Shown here one piece after another: positions 19,435 to 42,652 of a DNA stretch of 59,430 nucleotides. The stretch comes from Thermincola carboxydiphila (GTDB lineage: Bacteria; Bacillota; Thermincolia; Thermincolales; UBA2595). The notes under the pieces are model-generated. The model saw only the letters and a program-made list of their open reading frames with translations. It had not been told where the DNA came from and made no database searches. The DNA lies in contig JAENZX010000006.1 of the NCBI GenBank assembly GCA_016841045.1, positions 1-59,430 of the forward strand, read 5' to 3'. Both the position numbers and the translations under genes were made by a program. Position 1 is the stretch's first letter. Each line of letters opens with the position of its first letter.

Positions 19435-22029
19435 ATGAGAAAACTCAAAAGAATGATTGCTCTCGTTACTGTAGCAATGTTCCTGTTGAGCCTCGCTGCT
19501 CCGATGGCATCTGCTGATACCAAAACAGATGCATTTGACAGACTGAATGCTCTTGGCGTTGTTTACGGTGACCAGAATGGCGATCCTATGTATGACAAAA
19601 ACTATACCCGTGCAGAAGCTGCTGCTGTTATGGTTCAGCTTTCCGGCATGGGAGCAGCTATCGATGCTGCTAAAGGCGCTACTAAGTTTAGTGACGTTCC
19701 TGCTTCCCACTGGGCATCAGGCGTTATCAATCTTGCTGTAGGTGCCGGTATTATCAAAGGTTATCCTAATGGTACATATCAGCCTGAGAAATCTGTAAGT
19801 TATGCTGAAATGTGTGCTATGCTTGTTCAAGTTCTTGGTTATGGTCCCAAGCTCCAGGGAACCTGGCCGAGCAACGTAATTGGTAAAGCTGCTGAACTCG
19901 GCCTGCTTGATAGCCTCAGCATTTCCAACTACAATGATCCTGCTGTTCGTTCTAATGTATTTATAGCTGCTGACAATGCTCTTGAGACCGAAATTCTTCA
20001 AGAAAATAAAGACGGCTATGAGACTGAAGACGGCGAAACCTTAATGACTGAGAAACTCAATGCTGTTGAGCTTGAAGACGTGGTTGTTACCGAAGTTTCC
20101 TCAGCTGTAGATAGCATTGAAAAGAATCAAATTACATTACTGGGTAATTTTGATACTGATGCTGCCCTCGAGGAAAAAACTTTTGATGTTGTTTCTAAGA
20201 CTAACCTTCTCTCCTTCCTTGGACAAAAGGTTAAGGCTTATGCAAATGATGACGATGAAATCATTTCCTTAAAGTCAGATGAAGACGAAGTATTCGTTGA
20301 TACTATTAAGTCAGTTGATTCAACTAAGGTTCTCTTCTACGACAAAGGCTCCAAAGAAAAAGCTTCAGGCATGCAGGTATTTGAGAATTTCGAAGGCTCA
20401 GTTAATAATGTAACTCCTGCTGCTGGTGACTATGTAATCGTTGTAATGGATGGTTCAAAAGTTAGTAAGATGCAAGTTATTTCCCTCACTGAATATGGTA
20501 TTGTTGAAGAGGTTGAAGACAACAAGATTATCATGAAAGAGGATCCCTCTTCCAGTGACATTGATCTTGATGATGTAGATATGGACTATGTTCAAATCTA
20601 CAAGAACGGAAAAGTTGCTACTCTTGACGACATTAAAGCAGATGATCTCGTTGCTTCCATTAATAATAGCGACAAGTGGACTATCTTTGTTTCCGACAAG
20701 AAGTTCGAAGGTAAACTTGATGTAGTAACTCCTTCAGCCGGTAACGCTGTGAAGCTTGTTGTAGGCGACAACGCAGCTCGTTCTATCAATGTTAAGACCC
20801 TTGAGTATTCAACCGATAATGGCGACAGCTACAGCGATGCTAATCTTAGCAACCTGAATGATGACGTTATTGGTGAAGATGTTAAGGTTTACGTTAACCC
20901 TTGGGGTCAGGCTACTTACCTGGTAGCTGATGATGAAGCTGAAGGTGCTTCCAATAAGGTTGTTGTTCGTAACATTACTAGTGACGACAATCCTGGATCC
21001 AACACCGACAGCACTGTTAAGTACATCAAGGTAACCAAAGCTGACGGTACTGATGTTACTTATGAAATCGACAATGATGATTACACAGTAAACATGGTAG
21101 ATAGCTACTATGGTACCCTTGACTTAGATGATGCTGATGGTACTGGCAGTGCTGATGTTAGTGCTAAGGATATCGTTAAAATTTCTCTGAACTCTGCAGG
21201 TAAAGTAACTGACATTGATACTCTTAGCGACATTGTTACTCTGAGAGCTGGTGCGACCGGTATCAATGTTGACAACAAAGTAATGTATGGTACTGACAAC
21301 TTAGCTTATGTTGTAAGTGACGACACTGTATTCATCCAGGTTGATGAGTATGGTAACAGTACCAATTACATTGATGAGAATAAAAAGATTTCTTGGGCTA
21401 CTGTTGATGACAATGAATCCGCAATCGAAGGTCTTGCTGCAAATAAGGTTAAGTTCTATGTTGAGGACAAAGAAGTAGTAATTGCCCTCATTGACAGTGA
21501 CCTGTCCCTGTCCAGTGATGACATGTATGGTGTAGCTGTTAACGGTTCCTACGCTGTAGGTGGCGGTGACTATAACATCAAGATTCTGGTTAATGGCGAA
21601 CTGAAGTCTTACAAGCTTGATGACACTGTTGACAACTTCGCTTATGGTAACGCTCCTGTTGTATTCGCAGTTAACGCTGACGGTGACATTGATGAAATCG
21701 CTCGTGTAGTAGATAATGCTGCCGGTTACTACGATATCATCAGCCAGTTCGAAGTTAAGAATACTAAGTCTGTAGGCGATAAGCTGATCATCGTATACGA
21801 AGGTTCAGATGCTTCAACCTCCGCAGATGATGTTGAGTACATCGTTAATAAAGACAAAGTTAAATACTTCGACAATACTGGTGCAACCATCGAGGAAGAT
21901 GGCAGTATCAGTAGGGGTGACGTAGTAGTACTGTATGACTTCCTTGACAAGGATGGCGACGTTGCATCTGCTTCAAGTGGTGACAACGCTGCAGACGGTA
22001 TCTACGACTACGTGGTAATTGTAGACTAA
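19435..22029 (+). CDS. S-layer protein with N-terminal SLH domains
   Basis: Likely main S-layer protein, assembling into the cell-surface lattice. The 864-residue protein has a signal peptide (KLKR n-region, hydrophobic core, cleavage after ASA near residue 27), then three SLH domains (about 28-75, 85-135 and 140-190; FSDVPASHWASGVI is the clearest). The rest is a long Asp-rich, Thr/Ser-rich beta region with almost no Cys, typical of Ca2+-binding S-layer arrays and with many possible O-glycosylation sites. Repetitive, uniform codon use (GCT, GTT, GAC), a strong promoter and an own terminator indicate very high expression. The following genes suggest glycosylation. Confidence 0.88.
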   Translation: MRKLKRMIALVTVAMFLLSLAAPMASADTKTDAFDRLNALGVVYGDQNGDPMYDKNYTRAEAAAVMVQLSGMGAAIDAAKGATKFSDVPASHWASGVINLAVGAGIIKGYPNGTYQPEKSVSYAEMCAMLVQVLGYGPKLQGTWPSNVIGKAAELGLLDSLSISNYNDPAVRSNVFIAADNALETEILQENKDGYETEDGETLMTEKLNAVELEDVVVTEVSSAVDSIEKNQITLLGNFDTDAALEEKTFDVVSKTNLLSFLGQKVKAYANDDDEIISLKSDEDEVFVDTIKSVDSTKVLFYDKGSKEKASGMQVFENFEGSVNNVTPAAGDYVIVVMDGSKVSKMQVISLTEYGIVEEVEDNKIIMKEDPSSSDIDLDDVDMDYVQIYKNGKVATLDDIKADDLVASINNSDKWTIFVSDKKFEGKLDVVTPSAGNAVKLVVGDNAARSINVKTLEYSTDNGDSYSDANLSNLNDDVIGEDVKVYVNPWGQATYLVADDEAEGASNKVVVRNITSDDNPGSNTDSTVKYIKVTKADGTDVTYEIDNDDYTVNMVDSYYGTLDLDDADGTGSADVSAKDIVKISLNSAGKVTDIDTLSDIVTLRAGATGINVDNKVMYGTDNLAYVVSDDTVFIQVDEYGNSTNYIDENKKISWATVDDNESAIEGLAANKVKFYVEDKEVVIALIDSDLSLSSDDMYGVAVNGSYAVGGGDYNIKILVNGELKSYKLDDTVDNFAYGNAPVVFAVNADGDIDEIARVVDNAAGYYDIISQFEVKNTKSVGDKLIIVYEGSDASTSADDVEYIVNKDKVKYFDNTGATIEEDGSISRGDVVVLYDFLDKDGDVASASSGDNAADGIYDYVVIVD

Positions 22030-22239: not shown

Positions 22240-24345
22240 ATGGCGGATTCTGCGGTCTCCTTTAAAAAGTACTTTATGGTTATTTTGGGACTTCTTTTGT
22301 TTATACCTCCATTTTTTAAAGGTTTATATTTTGATAAAGATTATCTCTGGTTTGTGCTGGCCCTCCTTATCTTATTTACTATATATTACTCAACTCAGCA
22401 GATGGGCCACAATAAAAGGTTCTTGGACAATCTTAATGACTATCTTGTCCTGGGATTTGTCATAAGCTACGGTATTGCAGTATTCAATGCAGCTAATTAT
22501 AATGACGCTTTTAACGGATTTTTAAGGGTTGTAGGTTATTTTATCGTATATTACCTAATTGCTCACGGTCTGCGAAGTCAAAACGATGTAAGTAAGATAC
22601 TTAATGTACTTTACGGAGCGGGATTGCTGGTTGCGGTTGTTGGTCTTGGTGCCGGATTAAACTTTTATCATTTTGCGGGAGATATCACGGACGGTAGAAT
22701 CAACTCTACCCTGCAGTATCCCAATACACTTGCAGCTTATTTAACAGCGGTATTTATACTGGGAATATACTTAGCATTAAGTCAAAAGAACAGGATCCTC
22801 GGTATTATTTATAGTTTGGGCAATTATCTTTTGTTAATAACAATTTTTGGCACTCAATCCAGAGGCGGAATTTTGGTATTTTTATTTGTGCTTCCTTTGT
22901 TTTTATTGGGACCTCTCAGTAAAGTAAAACTTATTGCATGGGTAAATACAATAATTACAATCGTGTTTGCTTTTTTTGTGTCTCGTAATGTGCTTGCAGA
23001 CATATCTCACCAGACAGCGTTTGTTTCGATGTCATGGGTGCTGGGAGGGGCAATAACGGTTGCTGCGTTTTCATATGGACTTATCTTTCTTGTGGAAAAA
23101 ATTACCGTCCCTGAGAGTATCAGAAATTTAAAGATACTGGTTGGTGTAATCATCATTTTAATTTTGGGTTTGGTCACGGGACTTAGTTATGATTTTCTGC
23201 CGTCTCAATTTACTTCTCGGATAACAACCATAAATTTGAACGATCGGAACGTTTTGGAGAGATTTGTCTTTTATCAGGATGCTTTTAGGGCAATTAAAGA
23301 CAATATGATTTTTGGGGCTGGAGGAGGAGCATGGAGGACCCTTTTTCAGAGTTACCAGAGTTATTACTATATAGCCAGAGAGGTTCACAGTTATTACCTC
23401 CAGGTATGGTTGGAAGTCGGTATTATAGGATTGGCCTTCTTGATAGGGGTGTGGTTTACCTTTATAAGGTCAACGATTAGATTGTTAAGATCCAAAGGAA
23501 ACAACTATGAAGCCGGCATTTTGGGCTGGACAATACTTTGTTCTGCTCTTGCTCTTGGTCTTCATGGACTAATCGATTTCACTTTTTCATCAGGTGCAGT
23601 TGCTGTTTTCTTATGGACATTATTTGGCCTGATTAGGTCCCTTGAAGCAGCAAATGAAGATGACGATAATTGCGCTGCTGAAAAAGCTCGCAGTACATAC
23701 ATTAAAAAGGATTTAGTTGTAATTTCTGCCCTGGCAATTTTGTTGATAATCACTACTAGCTTGAATGCTGCAGTAAGTTACAGCAGCATGGCAAGTAAAT
23801 CGCTACAAAAAAATGACATTAGTAATTTTAAACGGGCTGCAGGGAAAGTTAACACTCTCAACCCGTTAAGTTCATCATTTCACCTATACTTGGCTCAAGT
23901 ATATGCACAGTCAGGTGGCGAACAAAAAAATGATAAAATGATGACGATGGCATTGGAGGAGGCCGACAAAGCCGTAAGATTAAATCCAAAGGAGCCGACC
24001 ATTAGAGAAGTTCGGGCAAGGATTTACCTGGCTATGGGTAAAGTTGACGAAGGTATAAAGGAAATGGAGACAGCATTGCAGCTTCAACCCTGGTATCAGG
24101 AACGCTGGGGTATTCTTACAGAGACTTACTATCAGGTAGGTAAATATTATCAAGGAGTAGGGGAAAAGGAAAAGGCAGCTGAATGCTTCAACAAAGTCAG
24201 TGATATGCCTGCCAGGATATCAGCCCAGTTAGCAAAATTGACGCCTGAGCATAAGAAGTTATGGGTTTTAGAACCAAAGCTTCAGGTGGATTCATATGTG
24301 TCAAGTTTGGCTGCTAAAGCCGATTCTCGGCTTAAGAGAATATAG
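22240..24345 (+). CDS. Wzy_C/O-antigen-ligase family membrane protein with TPR tail, candidate protein O-oligosaccharyltransferase
   Basis: A 701-residue polytopic membrane protein with about 12 helices, a large loop holding GAGGGAWRTLFQSY and REVHSYYLQVWLEVGIIGL (the Wzy_C motif with its His), SRGG in GTQSRGGILV, and a cytoplasmic or outer TPR tail (about residues 510-690, NPKEPTIREVRARIYLAMGK). Wzy_C-plus-TPR proteins act as O-antigen ligases or protein O-oligosaccharyltransferases; WsaB of Geobacillus and WsfB of Paenibacillus are the S-layer examples. Its place directly after the S-layer gene favours transfer of glycan to the S-layer, but polymerase activity cannot be excluded. The paralog is at 40502. 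AGGAGG precedes the ATG. Confidence 0.75.
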   Translation: MADSAVSFKKYFMVILGLLLFIPPFFKGLYFDKDYLWFVLALLILFTIYYSTQQMGHNKRFLDNLNDYLVLGFVISYGIAVFNAANYNDAFNGFLRVVGYFIVYYLIAHGLRSQNDVSKILNVLYGAGLLVAVVGLGAGLNFYHFAGDITDGRINSTLQYPNTLAAYLTAVFILGIYLALSQKNRILGIIYSLGNYLLLITIFGTQSRGGILVFLFVLPLFLLGPLSKVKLIAWVNTIITIVFAFFVSRNVLADISHQTAFVSMSWVLGGAITVAAFSYGLIFLVEKITVPESIRNLKILVGVIIILILGLVTGLSYDFLPSQFTSRITTINLNDRNVLERFVFYQDAFRAIKDNMIFGAGGGAWRTLFQSYQSYYYIAREVHSYYLQVWLEVGIIGLAFLIGVWFTFIRSTIRLLRSKGNNYEAGILGWTILCSALALGLHGLIDFTFSSGAVAVFLWTLFGLIRSLEAANEDDDNCAAEKARSTYIKKDLVVISALAILLIITTSLNAAVSYSSMASKSLQKNDISNFKRAAGKVNTLNPLSSSFHLYLAQVYAQSGGEQKNDKMMTMALEEADKAVRLNPKEPTIREVRARIYLAMGKVDEGIKEMETALQLQPWYQERWGILTETYYQVGKYYQGVGEKEKAAECFNKVSDMPARISAQLAKLTPEHKKLWVLEPKLQVDSYVSSLAAKADSRLKRI

Positions 24346-24486: not shown

Positions 24487-25854
24487 ATGTGGATTTCTAA
24501 CGAAAAAACAAAATACTCATTTCTAATAATGCTGGCTGACGCAGTGTTGATTAACTGTTGCATTGTTCTTGCCTATTTAATTAGGTTTAAACTTACTCTT
24601 CCCGATTTCAATTTCCGGCCGTATATGGAACTGTTCATTTGGATTTCACTAGGGGGTATTTTTTTTCTAAACCTTTATCACCTTTATTCGGTTTCAGCCA
24701 GAACAAGATGGGATGACCAATTCTATTCCATCGTATTGGCAGTGACACTAACGATGATGTATAGTGTTACTCTTACATATATTAGTGCAAACTATTCTTT
24801 TCCCCGAACGGTTTTTGTCATAAGTGGAGTGCTTCAGGTTATTTTTCTAACGTTGTGGCGGTATCTTTTGTGGAAGACGACCAAGAAAATCCTTGGTTCT
24901 CAAAGAGCTATACTTATTGGAAATGAGAAAGTAATCAATGAACTGGCTGACAGGCTGCAGAAATTTTCCGAGAATCACCTGGAGATAATCGGCTTGATTA
25001 CTGAGGTCTCTCCAGACGTGGCGGTTAAAGAGGGAAGATATAAATTTCTTGGATCCTTTGACGAATACAAAAGAGTGCTTGAACGAGAAGATTATGAGAT
25101 AGTAATTCTTGCCCCTTCTTTGGATATAAGCTTCAAAGAAGATGTTGTTAGCTTTTGCTATTCGTCAGGCAAGGAGGCTATAATCATTCCTGATTTGTAT
25201 GAGGTCCTTCTTGTCAAATCCGATCTTAGTCTGATTGATGATGTACCGGTACTTAATATTAAAAATCAGAATGGTGAACCTGATCCGGTAAAAAGGTTTT
25301 TAGATATAGTTATTGGTTCTGCAGCTTTTATTTTCACAATTCCGATAATGGCTCTTGTAGCTTTAAGTATAAAGTTGGATTCACCGGGACCTATAATATA
25401 CAGACAAGAACGTGTCACTAGAGGCGGCAAATTATTTATATTATATAAGTTCAGAACAATGGTTCAAAATGCTGAAAAAGGCACTGGACCGGTATTTGCA
25501 GTTGAGGATGACCAGAGAGCAACCAGGGTAGGGAAATTTTTGAGAAAAACGAGGCTGGATGAACTTCCTCAGTTTATTAATGTCATTAAAGGTGATATGA
25601 GTCTTGTTGGACCAAGGCCGGAGAGGCCTTTCTTTGTGGAGAAATACTCCAGGCTGATAAATGGCTATGACAATAGACACCGGATGAAACCGGGTATTAC
25701 TGGGATAGCGCAGATTGCGGGGAAATACAATACCGGGCCCAGGGAGAAACTGGTTTTTGATTTGTTATATTCTAAGAAGAATAACGTTTTGGTTGATTTA
25801 AAAATTTTGCTGCATACTGTAAAGGTGCTGTTTATGAGGGATAAGGCGTCATGA
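24487..25854 (+). CDS. Initiating undecaprenyl-phosphate sugar-phosphate transferase (WbaP/WsaP type)
   Basis: Starts glycan assembly by moving a hexose-1-phosphate from a UDP-sugar to undecaprenyl phosphate. The 455-residue protein has four N-terminal membrane helices (about 12-115), a Rossmann-like CoA_binding_3 domain (about 140-250), one more helix (RFLDIVIGSAAFIFTIPIMA) and the bacterial sugar-transferase core: SPGPIIYRQERV, ILYKFRTM, TRLDELPQFINVIKGDMS, VGPRPERP and KPGITGIAQI. All hallmark residues are present. Sugar specificity is not readable. It overlaps the next gene by ATGA. Confidence 0.92.
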   Translation: MWISNEKTKYSFLIMLADAVLINCCIVLAYLIRFKLTLPDFNFRPYMELFIWISLGGIFFLNLYHLYSVSARTRWDDQFYSIVLAVTLTMMYSVTLTYISANYSFPRTVFVISGVLQVIFLTLWRYLLWKTTKKILGSQRAILIGNEKVINELADRLQKFSENHLEIIGLITEVSPDVAVKEGRYKFLGSFDEYKRVLEREDYEIVILAPSLDISFKEDVVSFCYSSGKEAIIIPDLYEVLLVKSDLSLIDDVPVLNIKNQNGEPDPVKRFLDIVIGSAAFIFTIPIMALVALSIKLDSPGPIIYRQERVTRGGKLFILYKFRTMVQNAEKGTGPVFAVEDDQRATRVGKFLRKTRLDELPQFINVIKGDMSLVGPRPERPFFVEKYSRLINGYDNRHRMKPGITGIAQIAGKYNTGPREKLVFDLLYSKKNNVLVDLKILLHTVKVLFMRDKAS

Positions 25855-30011: not shown

Positions 30012-30788
30012 ATGTTTGAGACCATTAAGGAATTAATGTTATATAAAAATTTGATAATCAGTTTAACTCAATCTCAGGTTAGGAAGCGGTATAAAGGTTC
30101 GGTTCTTGGTGTCTTATGGTCATTGATTAATCCATTATTTTTGCTGGTAGTTTACGGTTTTGTATTTTCCTTTTTGATGCGGGGGCGCATTGAAAACTAT
30201 TTCTTGTTTTTATTTAATGGATTGCTTCCTTGGATTTTTTTTAAAACATCTGTCGTTATGAGTTCAAATTCAATAGTTGGAAATGCAGGTCTAATAAAGA
30301 AGACGTATTTTCCGCGTGAAATACTGCCTATTGCAACGGTGTTTGAAAATCTTGTGAATTTTTTTATGGGATTGCTAATATTAATTCCGGCTTTATTAAT
30401 ATTTGGTGACGGAATCAATCTTATGATATTTTGGCTGCCGGTGGTAATTTTAGTCCAGGTGGTATTAAACCTTGGGTTAGCGTTATTTTTTTCTGCGGTA
30501 ACCGTTTATTTAAGAGACATGAGGCATATTTTGGAAGTCCTAACCATGGCTATGTTTTATTACACTCCTATTTTGTATACCATGGACATGATTCCGGAAA
30601 GGTATCAGCCTTTTTTCAAATTGAACCCGATGGCTCCTCTTATTGATGCCTACCGACAAGTTTTATTTAAAAAAGATATACCTGATTTAGGGAGTTTGCT
30701 TTGGACTTTTATTTTTTCATTACTGATATTAGTTTCGGGGATGAAAGTATTTAAGCATCTTAACCGGGGATTTGCTGAAAAGGTTTAA
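30012..30788 (+). CDS. ABC-2 polysaccharide export permease (Wzm/TagG type)
   Basis: A 258-residue membrane protein with about six helices. The N-terminus LYKNLIISLTQSQVRKRYKGSVLG, then LWSLINPLFLLVVYGFVFS and YFPREILPIATVFENLVNFF, is the hallmark of Wzm/TagG permeases that export undecaprenyl-linked O-antigen or teichoic acids. It is paired with the ATPase 20 bases downstream. This means the glycan is built fully in the cytoplasm before export. Confidence 0.92.
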   Translation: MFETIKELMLYKNLIISLTQSQVRKRYKGSVLGVLWSLINPLFLLVVYGFVFSFLMRGRIENYFLFLFNGLLPWIFFKTSVVMSSNSIVGNAGLIKKTYFPREILPIATVFENLVNFFMGLLILIPALLIFGDGINLMIFWLPVVILVQVVLNLGLALFFSAVTVYLRDMRHILEVLTMAMFYYTPILYTMDMIPERYQPFFKLNPMAPLIDAYRQVLFKKDIPDLGSLLWTFIFSLLILVSGMKVFKHLNRGFAEKV

Positions 30789-30808
30789 TATAAAAGGTGG
30801 AGTACACG

Positions 30809-31525
30809 ATGGAGATTATAAGGGTCGAAGACCTTTCAAAAAAATTTATTCTAAGCAGCAGTCCAGGCACGCTTAAAGAGTGGCTTATTTCAAGAGGGAA
30901 AGGTTCAGCCAACAAGGAGTTCTGGGCGCTAAAAAACATTAATTTAAGCATAAATAAGGGTCAATCGTTAGGCCTGATAGGTAGAAACGGGTCAGGGAAA
31001 AGCACTTTGCTTAAAATCATATGTAAGATTTTGTACCCTACTACGGGGTCAGTTCAAGTCAACGGTAAAGTATCAAGCCTGCTTGAACTGGGAGCGGGCT
31101 TTATACCTGATTATACTGGTCGTGACAACGTGTATCTTAATGGCTCCATTTTGGGATTATCCAGAGAAGAAATTGACAAAAGATTTGATTCCATTGTGGA
31201 ATTTTCAGAGATAGGGGAGTTCATAGACCAACCTGTTCGTAATTATTCCTCGGGAATGTATATGAGGTTGGCATACTCAGTAGCCGTAAGTTCCAACCCT
31301 GAGGTTTTACTGATTGATGAGATTTTAGCTGTTGGGGACAGTAAGTTCAAAGAAAAGGGTTTGAATAGGATATTGGAATTAAAGGAAAAAGGCACCACTA
31401 TAGTTTTTGTTTCCCACTCGGATGCAATGATAAAAAAAGTATGTGATAGGGTTGTGTGGCTGGACAAAGGGTTAATAGTTGGGGAAGGGACTCCAAACGA
31501 TGTGCTGCCACAATATGCCCAATGA
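30809..31525 (+). CDS. ABC polysaccharide exporter ATPase (Wzt/TagH type, no carbohydrate-binding tail)
   Basis: A 238-residue ATPase with Walker A GLIGRNGSGKST, signature YSSGMYMRLAYSVA, Walker B EVLLIDEILAVGD and switch His in VFVSHSD. It has the family insert with LLELGAGFIPDYTGRDN. It ends right after the ATPase core, so the C-terminal glycan-recognition domain of O9a-type Wzt is absent. Start at ATG 30809, with AAAGGTGGAG upstream; the in-frame GTG at 30797 lies inside that ribosome site. Works with the permease before it. Confidence 0.92.
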   Translation: MEIIRVEDLSKKFILSSSPGTLKEWLISRGKGSANKEFWALKNINLSINKGQSLGLIGRNGSGKSTLLKIICKILYPTTGSVQVNGKVSSLLELGAGFIPDYTGRDNVYLNGSILGLSREEIDKRFDSIVEFSEIGEFIDQPVRNYSSGMYMRLAYSVAVSSNPEVLLIDEILAVGDSKFKEKGLNRILELKEKGTTIVFVSHSDAMIKKVCDRVVWLDKGLIVGEGTPNDVLPQYAQ

Positions 31526-31548: not shown

Positions 31549-34500
31549 ATGAACAGGTTTTGGCATAGTGTAATTTTACCAATATTAAAAGAGATAGATG
31601 CAAAGGTAATTATGGAAATTGGTTGTGCTCAGGGCAAGAATACAAAAAATATTATGTTGTATTGTGCTGAAAATAACGGGCTACTCTATGCTATTGACCC
31701 GTTCCCTGATTTTGATGTCCAGGATTTTAAAAATGAGTATGGTGATAAATTTGTTTTCTATCAAGAACTAAGCTTAAGTGCTCTACCTTTAATAGAGAAA
31801 TGTGATGCGATTTTGATTGATGGGGACCATAATTGGTATACAGTGTTTAATGAATTGAAAATAATCGAAAAAAACGCCCAAACAAGTGGCCATTTTCCCT
31901 TATTATTTCTTCATGATGTTGGTTGGCCATACGGAAGGCGAGATTTATATTATAACCCGGAAAACATTCCGGATCTATACAGGCAGCCTTACAAAAAACA
32001 AGGTTTATTACCGGGACAAAGCGGTTTGGTAGAACATGGGGGAATTAATGCCCATTTGTATAATGCAATTTATGAAAATAACCCTCAAAATGGGGTACTT
32101 ACTGCCGTTGAGGATTTTTTAGTTCAATCTTCTTTTGAGCTTAAGCTCTATAAATTTAGTGGTCTGAATGGTTTGGGGATAGTCGCTGAAAGCCGAGATT
32201 TAAATTTAAATGACTACATTAAGAACGTAATTTTCGATTCTGAGTTGGTTTCCCAGGTGGAGCAACATAGGCTAGAAGAAATGGTTCGCGCATCAGAAAA
32301 GAAATTGTTTATTGAAAAACTGAAAAGTGCTGAAATAGAATTGGTGAAAAAAATCAATTCAATTACTGAGCAGCATTCTCAATTATTAAAGCAGGTAGGG
32401 GACTTTGAGGATCTAAAAACTTTATTAAAGCAAGCACGAGATGAGAACCGAAACAAAGATGAACTGTTGAAGCTTAAAGGAAGTGAGTTAGCTGCTGCCC
32501 AGGCGGAAGTTCGGACTGCCCAGCAAAAGATGCGGAATCTTGAATTCGAAATGCAACAGCAAAAATATAGGCTGCGGCAAGCTCAAAGGACAGCCGAGGA
32601 ATACAGGAATTCTACCAGTTTCCGATTAGGGCATCTAATAGTGAAGGCCATTAAGCCTTCGAAAGATACTATTAAGTTCCCTTTTGCGATAATTAAATTA
32701 TTAAAGGATCAATTTCGGAAACCCAAAAAGGTCGAGGGAAAAAAAGTAATCTCCCATAAAATAGACACAGTGCAAGGTCAGTTACAAGATAATGGAGCGG
32801 TTGTTGATATAATCGTCTGTGTACATAATGCCTTAGAGGATGTTAAAGAGTGCTTGGAATCAATCTACAAAAAAACTGACGTGCCTTTTAGGCTAATAGT
32901 GGTGGATGATGGCAGTGAGAGAGAAACTAAGGATTATTTAAGCCAGAAAGCTGTGGACAAGGGATTTATTCTTCTTCGTAATGACAAGGCAAGAGGGTAT
33001 ACCTGTGCCGCTAACCAAGGACTTAAAGCGTCAAAGACTGGATACTGCATACTTTTAAATAGCGACACAATTGTTACCAGGGGTTGGGTCAAAAAACTTA
33101 TTGAGTGCGCAACAGTAGATAAAAAAACCGGCATTGTGGGGCCTCTGTCCAATGCCGCTAGTTGGCAGACGGTTCCTGAAATGATGGATGGGGAAGATTG
33201 GAAGGTAAATTTACTGCCGGACAGTATTAACGTTGAGTTAATGGCTTCAATTGTAGAAAACGCCTCTGTTAAAGAGTTTCCCAAAGTACCGTTTATTAAT
33301 GGTTTCTGCTTTTTCATTAAAAGAGAAGTCATTGATAAAATTGGTTATCTCGACGAAAAGACTTTTCCAAAGGGCTATGGGGAAGAAAATGATTACTGTC
33401 TAAGGGCAATGCAAGCAGGGTTTGAGCTGAGAGTAGCAGACCATTGCTATATATTTCATGAAAAATCAAAAAGCTTTACACACGAAACCAGAAAGGTGTT
33501 ATCCAAAAAGGCAAGCGAGTTATTGAAAGAAAAATATGGGAAAACTGTAATGGCAGAAAATGTCGCCCGAATGAAATCTAATACAACGTTACCGCAAATA
33601 CGAAGCCGAATAAAGACCATTTTGAGTCAAATTGAGCCCCGTGTTAAAAAATTAATGAGCAAATCTATGCTTTTTATACTACCTGTTAAAGGTGGGGGGG
33701 GAGGCGCTCATTCAGTTGTACAAGAGACGATGGGCTTAAGAGAATGCGGTTTTGATGTTAAAATAATAACGGATAAGAAGCATTTGGAAAGTTTTATAAA
33801 AAACTATCCTGAAGCCAAGGATTTTTGTTTGTCTTTTAAAGATGAAGAGAATCTTATACAACAGGCTGTTACTTTTGACATAGTAGTTGCCACTATTTTC
33901 AACTCCGTTCGTCTCCTAAAGAAGGTAAAAGATCATAGACCTGACATTATACCAGGGTATTATATCCAGGATTATGAGCCATTGTTTTTTGATGAAACTG
34001 ATCCGAGAGTAGAAGAAGCTAAGGAATCTTACAACTTGATTTCGGATATACGTGCATTTGCTAAAACCCACTGGATCAGGAATACGGTAAAAACTTACCA
34101 CGATATTGAAGTACACAAAGTAAAACCAAGTCTAGATACAAGACTATATAACCCTTATTTAACTAGCGTACGTCCAGTAGAGTCTGTTATTAAGATTGCA
34201 GCTATGATTAGGCCAAAGACTCCGAGAAGGGCTCCTAGGGAAACCCTTATGGTTTTAAAGAATATTAAGGAAAAATATGGAGACTCAGTAGAAATTAACA
34301 TTTTTGGTTGTAGTGATAAGGAACTAAACATGTTTGGAAATCTCACTCAATTTAGTTTTGTTAATCATGATGTACTTAAGCGATGGGAAGTTGCGGAATT
34401 ACTCAAGAGATCAGATGTTTTTCTTGATATGTCCACGTATCAGGCTTTTGGTAGGACCGGACTTGAAGCAATGGCTGTTGGTTGTGCAACCATTCTTCCT

Positions 34501-34713
34501 GAACAGGGGGGCACTGGGGAATATGCAGTTAATGGTAAGAATTGCATTTTAGTCGATACTTCAGACATATCTGCTACATCAAAAGCAATAGAGCAATTAA
34601 TTACTAATAAAGAGCTATTAGTAGAAATAAAGAAAAACGGAATTGAAACTGCTAAGAACTTTTCTATTAGAAGTGCCGTATGGTCTGAGATCCAATTTCT
34701 AATGAAACTTTAA
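31549..34713 (+). CDS. Methyltransferase - coiled coil - GT2 - GT4 fusion (WsaE-like)
   Basis: A 1054-residue multidomain enzyme. Residues ~1-215: SAM-dependent methyltransferase with IMEIGCAQGKNT, AIDPFPD and AILIDGDHNWYTV. Residues ~236-352: long charged coiled coil. Residues ~417-645: GT2 domain with VDIIVCVHNALEDVKECLES, VVDDGSE, LLNSDTIVT and GYGEENDYCLRA. Residues ~705-1054: GT4-like domain with FILPVKGGGGGAHSVVQE and FLDMSTYQAFGRTGLEAMAV. The same combination occurs in WsaE, the Geobacillus S-layer enzyme that extends the rhamnan and caps it with a methyl group. By analogy it may extend and terminate the chain; the coil could set chain length. TGGAGG precedes the ATG, 23 bases after the ATPase. 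Confidence 0.85.
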   Translation: MNRFWHSVILPILKEIDAKVIMEIGCAQGKNTKNIMLYCAENNGLLYAIDPFPDFDVQDFKNEYGDKFVFYQELSLSALPLIEKCDAILIDGDHNWYTVFNELKIIEKNAQTSGHFPLLFLHDVGWPYGRRDLYYNPENIPDLYRQPYKKQGLLPGQSGLVEHGGINAHLYNAIYENNPQNGVLTAVEDFLVQSSFELKLYKFSGLNGLGIVAESRDLNLNDYIKNVIFDSELVSQVEQHRLEEMVRASEKKLFIEKLKSAEIELVKKINSITEQHSQLLKQVGDFEDLKTLLKQARDENRNKDELLKLKGSELAAAQAEVRTAQQKMRNLEFEMQQQKYRLRQAQRTAEEYRNSTSFRLGHLIVKAIKPSKDTIKFPFAIIKLLKDQFRKPKKVEGKKVISHKIDTVQGQLQDNGAVVDIIVCVHNALEDVKECLESIYKKTDVPFRLIVVDDGSERETKDYLSQKAVDKGFILLRNDKARGYTCAANQGLKASKTGYCILLNSDTIVTRGWVKKLIECATVDKKTGIVGPLSNAASWQTVPEMMDGEDWKVNLLPDSINVELMASIVENASVKEFPKVPFINGFCFFIKREVIDKIGYLDEKTFPKGYGEENDYCLRAMQAGFELRVADHCYIFHEKSKSFTHETRKVLSKKASELLKEKYGKTVMAENVARMKSNTTLPQIRSRIKTILSQIEPRVKKLMSKSMLFILPVKGGGGGAHSVVQETMGLRECGFDVKIITDKKHLESFIKNYPEAKDFCLSFKDEENLIQQAVTFDIVVATIFNSVRLLKKVKDHRPDIIPGYYIQDYEPLFFDETDPRVEEAKESYNLISDIRAFAKTHWIRNTVKTYHDIEVHKVKPSLDTRLYNPYLTSVRPVESVIKIAAMIRPKTPRRAPRETLMVLKNIKEKYGDSVEINIFGCSDKELNMFGNLTQFSFVNHDVLKRWEVAELLKRSDVFLDMSTYQAFGRTGLEAMAVGCATILPEQGGTGEYAVNGKNCILVDTSDISATSKAIEQLITNKELLVEIKKNGIETAKNFSIRSAVWSEIQFLMKL

Positions 34714-34809
34714 AATAAGATTTATTTAGTCTTTGGTACTAGTTTGGATACCATTGAACACTTGCTTCCGCAAGGGCCCAATAAAAAATTAGTTCTTAGA
34801 GGACAACTT

Positions 34810-36909
34810 ATGACTAACCTGCAAAAAGAAACAAAGCAAATAGGAGCACTTGGTTGGATTAATTCCACTAAAACTTACATTTTAAATTATTTTGGCTATG
34901 GCATTTTATATAAAAGCCTTAGCGGATTTTATAGGTTGATTAAAACACTTATCGAACAAATTAAAAGAGCTAAATTTACAAAACATTTATCAGATCAATT
35001 CAAAAATAATAGTATACGCCCAAATAAAATCCTTATAAAGAAAAAGCTGTTATCTGCCCAAACGTTAAAAGTATTATTTGCTGTCAGTGAAACAGGGCCC
35101 GATGCGACTGCGGGAGATTATTTTACAGCTTTGGAATTAGGAGAAGCATTAAAAAAATCTTTTGGTTGGGAAATTGGGTTTTTAAGTAAAAATGCTGATG
35201 ATTGGTATCAGGTGGAACCGGATGTTGATATCTTAATTTCCATGCTTGAATCTTTTGACCCCCGCAAGATTAAAGGTGACAGTAATGGATTATTAAAAAT
35301 AGCATGGCAGAGAAACTCGTTTGAAAAATGGCCCGATAGTCCGGGGACACAGGAATATAACATTATTTGTGCTTCCAGCCAAATAGCATGTGACTACATC
35401 AAAGGTAAAACTGGCAGACAGGTAGATTTATTACCTATTGCAACTAATGAAAAGAGATTTTGTGATACCATTGAAAAATTAGAAGAATACGATTGCGAAT
35501 ATTGTTTCACCGGAAGTTACTGGAATGACCCTAGAGATATTATAGAATTACTAGACCCACAGGGATTGCCATATAAGTTTAACCTATACGGCAAAAATTG
35601 GGATAGAATAAAAAAATTTAAGCCCTACTACAAGGGTTTTTATCCATATGAGGATATGCCGAAAATATACAAGTCTACCAAAGTTGTTATTGATGATGCT
35701 AACCGCACAACTAAACCATTCGGCGCAGTAAACAGCAGAGTATTCGATGCATTGGCCAGTGGAACCCTTGTTTTAACTAACGGAGATTTGGGGTCTTCTG
35801 GCACCTTTGAAGGCAAGCTGCCTGTCTTTAACAATAAGGAGGAGTTAAAGCAATTATTAGATTATTACCTGCAAAATGAAGAAGCAAGATTATACAAAGT
35901 TGCTGAACTGAAGAAGTTTGTCTTGGCAAACCATACATATATGCACCGGGCCTTGGAGTTAAGGAGCATAATTGAAAAATACACTACCCTTCAGATTGCC
36001 ATCAAAATACCCGCTCCCAGTTGGGAGGTTGCCCATGAATGGGGAGACTATCATGTAGCATTAGGACTAAAGAAGAATTTTGAAAAAGTCGGATTCAAAG
36101 TAGTAATACATGTTTTGTCCGAGTGGGATGCGCTTGAGGACAAAGAAAGTGATGTTGTTATTGTACTCAGAGGATTAAGCTACTATAAGCCAAAGCCCCA
36201 ACACTTCAATATTATGTGGAATATTTCTCATCCTGAAAAGGTGTCTTTAGATGAATATAACCAATATGATTATGTATTTATAGCTTCCGAACCGTGGGTT
36301 AATCAAATAGCCCCCCAGGTGAAAACCAAAGTAAGACTCATGCTTCAATGCACCGATCCCGAATTGTTTAAAGCAGAACCAGCATCCGAATTAAGCCACG
36401 AAATACTCTTTGTGGGTAATTCGCGGAATGTATATCGCAAGGCGGTTAGAGATGCAATAAGCGTTGATTTAGCACCGTCTGTATATGGAAGCAATTGGCT
36501 TCAGTTTATTGACAATCAACATATCAAGGGCGAGCATATACCCAATTCTGAGCTGAACAGATACTATAGCTCGTGCAAAATACTGTTAAATGACCATTGG
36601 GATGATATGCGGGAAAAGGGTTTTATATCTAACCGGGTCTTTGACGCCTTGGCCTGTGAAACCTTTGTTATATCTGATAAGGTAAAGGGTATTGAAAATG
36701 TTTTTGAAGATGTTGTGGTTACTTATGAAACTAAACATGAATTGGAAAATCTAATAAATGTATATTTAGGTTCCGAATACTTGAGGAAGCAAAAAGCGTT
36801 GAAAGGAAAAGAAATTGTGCTAAAAAATCATACATATGCAGCAAGAGTTAAACAATTTGCTCAAGTTATAGACGAGCATTTTAGCCAAACTTTGCTCAAT
36901 AACTCTTAA
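34810..36909 (+). CDS. Tandem glycosyltransferase with two GT-B (CgeB-like) donor domains
   Basis: A 699-residue protein with two similar halves. The first donor domain (about 230-380) shows YCFTGSYWNDPRDIIELL, VVIDDANRTT and NSRVFDALASGTLVLTNGD; the second (about 530-695) shows EILFVGNSRNVYRKAVRDAI, ILLNDHWDDMREKGFISNR and VFDALACETFVISD. Both resemble the glycosyltransferase 1_2 group, so the gene probably adds two sugars or arose by duplication. Start at ATG 34810 with AGAGG upstream; a TTG start at 34744 would add 22 residues of poor character. No terminator separates it from the fusion gene before it. Confidence 0.78.
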   Translation: MTNLQKETKQIGALGWINSTKTYILNYFGYGILYKSLSGFYRLIKTLIEQIKRAKFTKHLSDQFKNNSIRPNKILIKKKLLSAQTLKVLFAVSETGPDATAGDYFTALELGEALKKSFGWEIGFLSKNADDWYQVEPDVDILISMLESFDPRKIKGDSNGLLKIAWQRNSFEKWPDSPGTQEYNIICASSQIACDYIKGKTGRQVDLLPIATNEKRFCDTIEKLEEYDCEYCFTGSYWNDPRDIIELLDPQGLPYKFNLYGKNWDRIKKFKPYYKGFYPYEDMPKIYKSTKVVIDDANRTTKPFGAVNSRVFDALASGTLVLTNGDLGSSGTFEGKLPVFNNKEELKQLLDYYLQNEEARLYKVAELKKFVLANHTYMHRALELRSIIEKYTTLQIAIKIPAPSWEVAHEWGDYHVALGLKKNFEKVGFKVVIHVLSEWDALEDKESDVVIVLRGLSYYKPKPQHFNIMWNISHPEKVSLDEYNQYDYVFIASEPWVNQIAPQVKTKVRLMLQCTDPELFKAEPASELSHEILFVGNSRNVYRKAVRDAISVDLAPSVYGSNWLQFIDNQHIKGEHIPNSELNRYYSSCKILLNDHWDDMREKGFISNRVFDALACETFVISDKVKGIENVFEDVVVTYETKHELENLINVYLGSEYLRKQKALKGKEIVLKNHTYAARVKQFAQVIDEHFSQTLLNNS

Positions 36910-40501: not shown

Positions 40502-42652
40502 ATGGCTAAGGTTAAATCCGGCCCCAAGAGTGCTGGACACGTCGATAAAGGTCGCAAAGATGTTAATTCAAAGCGGCTGCGTGATAAGGGTGTGGATGCA
40601 GTCTTTTATCTACTTCTGCCACTGCTTTTCCTGGCACCTTTTTTTCGGGGTTTATTCTTTTATGAAGAATTAAACGTAGCTCATATGTATACGGCAGTAA
40701 TTGCGGGGGTTTATTTTTACCTTAACCGTGATAAACTCCGTTTTTCTAAGAGTATCATGGATTATGCCGGGGCTGGGCTTGTTATAGCTTATTTGCTTTC
40801 GTCCTTTGTAGCTGTTAGCAGTCGGGGCGGTATTGGCCTCGTTATGAAGAACCTTAACTACTTCCTTGTATATCTGTTAGTGGCTCAGGTTGTAAAAAAC
40901 ACAGATCAGATTAAAAAAATCCTTATTACCGTCTTTACCTCAGGAGTAATAGTAGCTTTGATAGGACTAGGTAATTTCTTCGGAAGCTTTGAAACTGACG
41001 GTGGTGTTTTAGATGGGCTAATTTGTTCCACTATTCAGTATCATAATGCAACAGCAATCTTTCTCTTTGCCATAGGGATGTTGGGTTTGGCTCTGACCGT
41101 TTACTTTAAAGATGGGTTTGCCCGTACTCTAACTGCAGGTGCCACGTATGTTGCAATAATCACAGCAATGGGGGCAGGTTCACGGGGAGCACTGCTGGTT
41201 ACTCCTATAGCAATGCTGATACAGTTTTTAGGATTACCCAGGGCGGACAAGGAGAAATATTTTTACACTGTCCTTGCTGTAACGGTTCCTCTTGTTATTA
41301 CGTCCAAGAGTGTTCTAACCCTGAATGTTGAAAATTCAGATTCATATTATTGGGGAATACTGTTTCTAGGATTCTTTCTCAGTTGTTTAATACAGTTTGG
41401 CTTTGACCGGTTTATCAACTTAAGCGGAAAGACAAAAAGGGGTTATATCCTGTCTACCGGTGCCATTGTAGCAGTGGCCCTTGCTGCAGTTGTTGTGGTT
41501 AAGGGAGCCGAAATTATGCCTGCATCTGTAGTTGACAGGGTTAAGGAATTTAACTTACAGAACAACAACGTCCTGGACCGCTTTAACTTCTATGAAGATG
41601 CGGTCAAAGTAGTAAAAGACCATCCCGTACTGGGTGTAGGCGGAGGTGGGTGGAAATCCATTTATCGCTCGTACCAGAATTACTGGTATGATACTACTGA
41701 GGTACACAGCCATTTCTTCCAGGTATTGGTTGAAACAGGTGCATTAGGTTTTATCTTATATCTTTTACTATGGCTTGGGCTATTGATAAGCAGTATAAGG
41801 CTGCTTAGGAGTGCTTCGCCGGAAATGAAGTTACTGACATGGACAGCCTTTTCAACGGCTATTGGTATAGGGATGCACAGCGCCATCGACTTTACTCTGT
41901 CGCTGGGTGCGATAAGCATATTACTGTGGTTTCTTATGGGTCTGGTCAGAGCCGGTGAGGAACAGACCTTTGGAAATGACAACTATTTTTCTACTCCGGT
42001 ATTTGATACAGGTATAAGAAAGATTATTGGGATTATAATATCAGTAGTATTTTTTGCAGCCTCTGCCAGCTTTTTTTGGAGTACGCTTAATGTTAATAAG
42101 GCCATCGACACTTATCAACAAGGTGATCTGGAAGGTGCCATTGCAACAATGGAGTTTGCCGTAAAACTTGATCCCTATACAACAAAGAATCTTACGGACC
42201 TGTCAATTATGTACACGGAAAAAGCATCAAGGGGTGACGTCGGAGCAATCAGTCAAGCTCTCAGTGCTTCTGAAAAAGCAGTCCAAAACGACTCCGGGGA
42301 TGGCGAGGTCAGGTGGCATTTAGCAAAAGCCTATTACAATTCCAGAAATATGGAAAAAGGGGTACAAACGGCTGAGGAAGCTGTTAACCTTGCGCCATTT
42401 GTGACCAGAGGATATATTCAGTTGGCAATGTATTATAACGCAGTAGCGCAATTTTATTTACAGGCAGGCGACAAGGAAACGGCCCATATTTTGCTTGAAA
42501 AAACTCTGGCTATACCGGAGAGGATGAAAATGCAGGCCAGTAAGCTTGACGAAGAAGGCAGGAGACTGTTTAAAGGTACTCCGCTTGATGCGCCCAACGG
42601 AGAGCTGGATAAGATGCTCGCAGAAGCCAGGGGGCTTCTATCCCGATTATAA
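40502..42652 (+). CDS. Second Wzy_C/O-antigen-ligase family protein with TPR tail
   Basis: A 716-residue paralog of the protein at 22240, with the same plan: about 12 membrane helices, GAGSRGALLVTPIA, the loop GVGGGGWKSIYRSYQNYWYD with TEVHSHFFQVLVETGALGF, IDFTLSLGAISILLWFLMGLVRA, and a TPR tail (about 540-700). Lysine-rich N-terminus before the first helix. It could be a second oligosaccharyltransferase or the glycan polymerase/ligase. AGGAGG precedes the ATG. The 189-base gap before it holds only small stems (CCAGCA/TGTTGG and GACT/AGTC). Confidence 0.75.
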   Translation: MAKVKSGPKSAGHVDKGRKDVNSKRLRDKGVDAVFYLLLPLLFLAPFFRGLFFYEELNVAHMYTAVIAGVYFYLNRDKLRFSKSIMDYAGAGLVIAYLLSSFVAVSSRGGIGLVMKNLNYFLVYLLVAQVVKNTDQIKKILITVFTSGVIVALIGLGNFFGSFETDGGVLDGLICSTIQYHNATAIFLFAIGMLGLALTVYFKDGFARTLTAGATYVAIITAMGAGSRGALLVTPIAMLIQFLGLPRADKEKYFYTVLAVTVPLVITSKSVLTLNVENSDSYYWGILFLGFFLSCLIQFGFDRFINLSGKTKRGYILSTGAIVAVALAAVVVVKGAEIMPASVVDRVKEFNLQNNNVLDRFNFYEDAVKVVKDHPVLGVGGGGWKSIYRSYQNYWYDTTEVHSHFFQVLVETGALGFILYLLLWLGLLISSIRLLRSASPEMKLLTWTAFSTAIGIGMHSAIDFTLSLGAISILLWFLMGLVRAGEEQTFGNDNYFSTPVFDTGIRKIIGIIISVVFFAASASFFWSTLNVNKAIDTYQQGDLEGAIATMEFAVKLDPYTTKNLTDLSIMYTEKASRGDVGAISQALSASEKAVQNDSGDGEVRWHLAKAYYNSRNMEKGVQTAEEAVNLAPFVTRGYIQLAMYYNAVAQFYLQAGDKETAHILLEKTLAIPERMKMQASKLDEEGRRLFKGTPLDAPNGELDKMLAEARGLLSRL

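Follow-up and report, generated by a model that had tools for sequence, protein, structure and literature searches.

A putative end-modifying polymerase with a methyltransferase, a coiled coil and two glycosyltransferases in an S-layer-type gene cluster of Thermincola carboxydiphila

Several bacterial glycans are extended and terminated by enzymes that carry both activities in one chain. In Geobacillus stearothermophilus NRS 2004/3a, WsaE combines a methyltransferase with two rhamnosyltransferases; it is encoded within an S-layer cluster, works with WsaF, and has been proposed to cap its product by O-methylation, a reaction that was independent of chain length in vitro (PMC2943079). In Klebsiella pneumoniae, O7 ORF6 and O12 WbbB each unite a terminator, a coiled coil and two glycosyltransferases within a single protein, and the coil is considered by the authors to be a characteristic marker of this strategy across bacteria (PMC11231755). 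In known systems, Wzt recognizes the cap through a C-terminal carbohydrate-binding domain, which was reported to be essential, as exporters without it fail on capped O antigen (PMC9445017). Even so, an exporter without such a module (CBM) is not fatal to capping, since, in a recombinant, O3a antigen can leave through the CBM-less K. pneumoniae O2a exporter. Furthermore, the chain length of O1/O2a depends on the ratio of exporter to polymerase, and the O1 pyruvate is not length-controlling (PMC11231755).

The window analyzed here, a 59,430-nucleotide stretch of T. carboxydiphila DNA (contig JAENZX010000006.1, assembly GCA_016841045.1), encodes a protein of this general type. It is specified by a single intact ORF that starts with ATG, is preceded by a ggagg ribosome binding site approximately 8 bases 5' of the start codon, and yields 1054 amino acids (Table 1). 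Pfam directly identifies Methyltransf_24 at residues 23-114 (2.6e-9), Glycos_transf_2 at 421-598 (4.5e-22) and Glycos_transf_1 at 900-1033 (6e-17), and the order of terminator, coiled coil and two glycosyltransferase modules seen in WbbB and O7 ORF6 is found here as well. The original prediction of a methyltransferase, a coil, a GT2 and a GT4 in that order is borne out by Pfam, the heptad signal and an AlphaFold model. Its domain edges (1-215 for the methyltransferase and 236-352 for the coil) were correct to within a few residues, but it overlooked the basic segment at 355-395.

Table 1. Positions of the features discussed in the text; coordinates with an L prefix refer to other loci.
Feature	Position	Strand	Evidence
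SLH-domain (S-layer type) protein, candidate glycan acceptor	19435..22029	+	
Wzy_C/O-antigen-ligase-like protein with TPRs, candidate glycan-to-protein ligase	22240..24345	+	
Polyprenyl-phosphate sugar-1-phosphate transferase, initiating enzyme, WsaP/WbaP type	24487..25854	+	
Wzm, ABC-2 permease of polysaccharide exporter	30012..30788	+	Pfam
Wzt ATPase, 242 aa, without C-terminal carbohydrate-binding domain	30797..31525	+	Pfam
Whole ORF: methyltransferase, coil, GT2, GT4	31549..34713	+	ORF, Pfam, RBS
COMT-type cation-dependent O-methyltransferase (predicted), residues 1-216, Methyltransf_24	31549..32196	+	Pfam, alignment, model
Coiled coil, residues 232-354, break near 298-303	32242..32610	+	Heptad signal, AlphaFold
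STSFR motif and basic amphipathic segment, residues 355-395	32611..32733	+	Moment, charge, relatives
GT2 glycosyltransferase, residues 418-650	32800..33498	+	Pfam, intact motifs
GT4 glycosyltransferase, WsaF-related, residues about 704-1054	33658..34710	+	Pfam, structure matches
Next gene, two Glyco_trans_1_2 domains, possible partner transferase	34744..36909	+	Pfam
Second Wzy_C/O-antigen-ligase-like protein with TPR tail	40502..42652		
Two-NBD Wzt	L018:6339-7850		
Two-NBD Wzt	L021:6417-7979		
Two-NBD Wzt	L022:2289-3857		
Two-NBD Wzt	L028:6436-7956		
Two-NBD Wzt	L030:13380-14966		
Two-NBD Wzt	L032:1-1563		
Two-NBD Wzt	L040:12488-14065		
Two-NBD Wzt	L041:13264-14985		

By layout and context, rather than by sequence comparison, the 1054-aa protein is WsaE-like. 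In both proteins, a single chain comprises a methyltransferase at the N-terminus and two glycosyltransferases, and both are encoded downstream of wzm/wzt in an S-layer cluster that includes a gene for an initiating transferase and one for a putative protein-glycan ligase. They differ in the partner, which is WsaF in Geobacillus, whereas here the next gene encodes another type of glycosyltransferase. The resemblance to WsaE had been anticipated, and the single-chain arrangement, the adjoining wzm/wzt and the WsaF-related GT4 all agree with it. The fusion itself had been presumed to be unusual, which it is not, because WbbB, O7 ORF6 and WsaE precede it (PMC11231755, PMC2943079). ORF6 shares the methyltransferase, the coil, the two glycosyltransferases and an ABC-exporter cluster, but it carries two inserts, a kinase and a CBM-like domain, between its methyltransferase and coil, makes a methyl-phosphate, and contains two GT2-type modules. 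WbbB of K. pneumoniae O12 and Raoultella terrigena likewise combines a terminator, a coil ruler and two polymerizing glycosyltransferases, although the terminator is a Kdo transferase and its exporter reads the terminal residue via a cap-binding domain. With WbdD of Escherichia coli O9a, the shared features are an N-terminal methyltransferase and a coil, and the membrane-associated amphipathic region of WbdD has a possible counterpart in the basic segment at 355-395. WbdD differs in having a kinase (211-459), a separate, recruited polymerase (WbdA) and a CBM-bearing Wzt. The Thermincola protein is not a WbdD, as it has neither the kinase nor a CBM partner and its polymerase is fused. An intact O-methyltransferase held off the polymerase by a coil is supported, but the parallel with WbdD drawn in the original prediction is weakened by the missing kinase and by the absence of a carbohydrate-binding domain from the adjacent Wzt, which that prediction had overlooked.

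The methyltransferase domain is well conserved. Sixty sequences align across its full length with 24 invariant residues, including E23, G25, D91, G92, D93, H94, H122, D123 and W126, and its best structural matches (model pLDDT 94.8) are catechol O-methyltransferases (COMT; Z 15.4). From a comparison by eye, we take D91, H122 and D123 to occupy the Mg-binding positions of COMT and H94 that of its catalytic lysine. The model indicates a cation-dependent, COMT-type O-methyltransferase fold with intact active-site residues. A kinase domain of the WbdD O9a type between the methyltransferase and the coil was absent from both the Pfam and AlphaFold results, and there is no room between residues ~216 and ~232 for a kinase or CBM insert like those of WbdD or O7 ORF6. 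Because of the COMT-type fold and the missing kinase, the predicted product is likelier a sugar O-methyl ether than a methyl-phosphate in the style of WbdD O9a. WbdD is not among the listed structural neighbors of the domain, which has no bearing on kinship. Among 398 surveyed genomes of the same phylum, just one other encodes this methyltransferase.

The coiled coil, which had been predicted at residues 236-352, is genuine. Its heptad signal, scored with a home-made heptad count rather than a published predictor, exceeds that of all 300 composition shuffles over residues 236-355, which rules out a coil by chance, with a periodicity peak at 3.5 (p 0.004) and the highest-scoring stretch at residues 245-364. 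AlphaFold places two long helices at 232-297 and 304-354, separated by a break at about 298-303, in a monomer model of moderate confidence (coil pLDDT about 60-78; whole-chain pTM 0.60), and the full span would measure ~18 nm at full extension. Following the coil, an STSFR motif that is also present in relatives leads into a segment with a helical moment of up to 0.60, among the highest of the protein, a net charge of +2 to +6 in most windows, and a modeled helix at 379-389. This basic amphipathic segment is a possible membrane contact. A search of the window's own coil DNA for tandem repeats found none. Nine relatives (L020, L021, L023, L025, L031, L037, L038, L058 and L064) do contain in-frame DNA tandem repeats of 21, 33, 42, 48 or 63 nt inside their coils, corresponding to periods of 7, 11, 14, 16 or 21 aa, with some copies 93-100% identical. 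Being in-frame, such repeats would shift coil length by whole units, and they could render coil length, and perhaps glycan length, slippage-prone.

Both glycosyltransferases have intact motifs that are conserved across relatives, those of the GT2 being DDGS, NSDT and GYGEENDYC. Among solved structures, the conserved GT4 core matches WsaF alone (E 5e-4), whereas the full GT4 profile matches WsaF along with other GT4 enzymes. WsaF is a rhamnosyltransferase, and the glycan is most likely a rhamnose-containing, S-layer-type polymer, judging by sequence. In the gene context, the wzm, wzt, initiating transferase, ligase-like and SLH genes all lie upstream of the ORF, while rmlD, rmlA, an rmlC-like gene and rmlB occur about 40 kb further along the same contig. 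By analogy, this layout resembles described S-layer glycosylation clusters (PMC2943079). We also observed that the cluster is flanked by two Wzy_C/O-antigen-ligase-like proteins with TPR tails.

One feature of the cluster departs from known capping systems. PF14524 (Wzt_C) was searched for on the adjacent 242-aa Wzt and was not found; the sole copy in the genome resides 48 kb downstream, on a Wzt that has its own Wzm. Cap-gated export is consequently not supported by the sequence of this locus, because the adjacent Wzt has no carbohydrate-binding domain. The second Wzm/Wzt pair (G000:C48, about 72-92 kb; L116:13183-20000 and L117:1-10000) is neighbored by rml genes, a NeuB-like synthase, a CMP-sugar cytidylyltransferase and genes resembling those for glycero-manno-heptose synthesis, and its glycan is perhaps capped by a nonulosonic acid. 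The condition of the adjacent Wzt is common among relatives. The methyltransferase occurs together with an ABC exporter at 25 loci. Wzt_C is present on the adjacent Wzt in three of these, while 14, including the window, have a bare single-ATPase Wzt and eight have a Wzt with two fused ATPase domains. No Wzt_C was detected anywhere in 17 of the 25 genomes searched (two without a local Wzt; many are drafts). The 500-570 aa length of some Wzt proteins of relatives had made them candidates for cap binding, which was refuted by their two fused ATPase domains. These two-NBD Wzt genes, which have no carbohydrate-binding domain, adjoin methyltransferase-coil genes; Walker A and B motifs are intact in both halves of the seven scanned, and a limited literature check found no published description of such a Wzt. 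A further variant, the 632-aa Wzt of L011 (L011:3950-5848), has its ATPase in the second half of the chain and a weak cohesin-like match close to the N-terminus.

Based upon these features, the 1054-aa protein is likely to be an end-modifying polymerase, and a role for its coil as a chain-length ruler is plausible. The GT2 and GT4 modules would sit near the membrane, anchored by the basic amphipathic segment, and would alternate in adding sugars to a lipid-linked chain until O-methylation of the growing-end sugar by the N-terminal domain halts extension. The coil would oligomerize the protein and separate the methyltransferase from the polymerizing sites by as much as about 18 nm. Held at such a distance, the methyltransferase would rarely be reached by short chains, which would bias length toward a minimum. 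The finished chain would then exit via Wzm/Wzt without a cap-binding check, since the Wzt consists of an ATPase domain only. We consider this full account of a chain-extending, end-methylating, single-chain enzyme for an ABC-exported glycan, with the coil as its ruler, to stand at about an even chance of being right. Weighing against it are the Wzt with no cap-binding domain, the chain-length-independent methylation by WsaE in vitro (PMC2943079) and the moderate confidence of the coil in a monomer model.

The distribution of the domains among relatives bears directly upon this account. An identical domain order occurs in L008 (Actinomycetota), L010 (Chloroflexota) and L013 (Peptococcaceae), and the GT2-GT4 chassis is also joined to an N-terminal Methyltransf_23 in L015 and L016 and to other N-termini in L014, L019 and L067. 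The methyltransferase itself is also found on its own, with nothing but a coil, or with other glycosyltransferase partners. L009 and L012 have no methyltransferase, yet their chassis is preceded by a short coil and this basic segment, so that the coil could be a scaffold of general use. When the chassis carries an N-terminal methyltransferase, its coil comprises 82-298 predicted residues versus 0-102 without one (p 0.012; 6 vs 6, uncorrected for kinship). Among the methyltransferase copies, wzm/wzt lie within about 8 kb of 24 of the 38 that bear a coil, compared with one of the 33 that do not (Fisher p 4e-8). This contrast fits a coil relevant to long, exported chains. However, the coil changes state only about five times on the methyltransferase tree, and a sign test on that tree is not significant; the association is thus a correlation with few independent events, and we do not use it as proof of function. 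Coil-less copies in L056 (7968-15109), L045, L069 and L070 lie near long collagen-like coding sequences, with a GT2 gene between the two in L056. In this setting, short glycans would be expected, and glycosylation of collagen-like surface proteins is a candidate function. Close, coil-bearing relatives of the methyltransferase are also encoded by methanogenic archaea (L036, L042, L044 and L064; Methanosphaera, Methanobrevibacter and Methanovirga), with no Wzm/Wzt match on the DNA examined.

The strongest competing explanation is that the coil only oligomerizes or tethers the protein and the methyl group decorates some of the chain ends, while length is set by the exporter-to-polymerase ratio, as in the CBM-less O1/O2a systems. 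The latter make export-coupled length control a serious rival, given that length there does not depend on the terminal pyruvate (PMC11231755). The exporter data agree with this possibility as well, as the Wzt of the window and those of the other loci making up 22 of the 25 have no cap-binding domain, and so does the occurrence of a short coil and basic segment without any methyltransferase. Against it, fusion of a terminator domain goes with longer coils, the position of the coil between terminator and polymerase matches that in proven rulers, and a simple tether has no obvious need for 120 or more residues that grow by whole repeats. On balance, we regard a scaffolding coil with export-coupled length control as possible, but less probable than the ruler account.

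Nothing in the sequence fixes the specificity of the methyltransferase for the terminal sugar, and in Paenibacillaceae the same enzyme occurs as a separate protein beside GT2 genes. Both observations would be compatible with methylation of internal sugars in each repeat unit, in which case the fusion would serve processivity. This appears improbable, as a long coil would separate the methyltransferase from each newly added sugar and the counterparts in WsaE and O7 ORF6 act on the terminus. A mere fusion without joint function, or a different methyltransferase substrate such as the lipid carrier or a protein, is very improbable: although the methyltransferase occurs alone and with many partners, the same order recurs in L008, L010 and L013 from three phyla with catalytic residues intact throughout, and other methyltransferase types take that N-terminal position in L015 and L016.

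If the preferred account of an end-methylating polymerase with a coil ruler is correct, the Thermincola protein joins the few known single-chain terminator-coil-polymerase enzymes as one with a COMT-type terminator on a GT2-GT4 chassis, and it does so in the S-layer-type cluster of a spore-former. Its family supplies natural variants for the ruler idea, namely coil-less forms, short-coil forms without a terminator and coils lengthened by repeats, together with exporters that either have or do not have a cap-binding domain. It is conceivable, though doubtful, that this methyltransferase family combines capping and coil-based length control without cap-gated export, such that either the coil alone sets length or another part reads the cap. 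Most worth following is how methyltransferase-coil systems operate without a cap-binding exporter. Should a cap work in the absence of a Wzt cap-binding domain, the textbook coupling of export to capping would have to be qualified.
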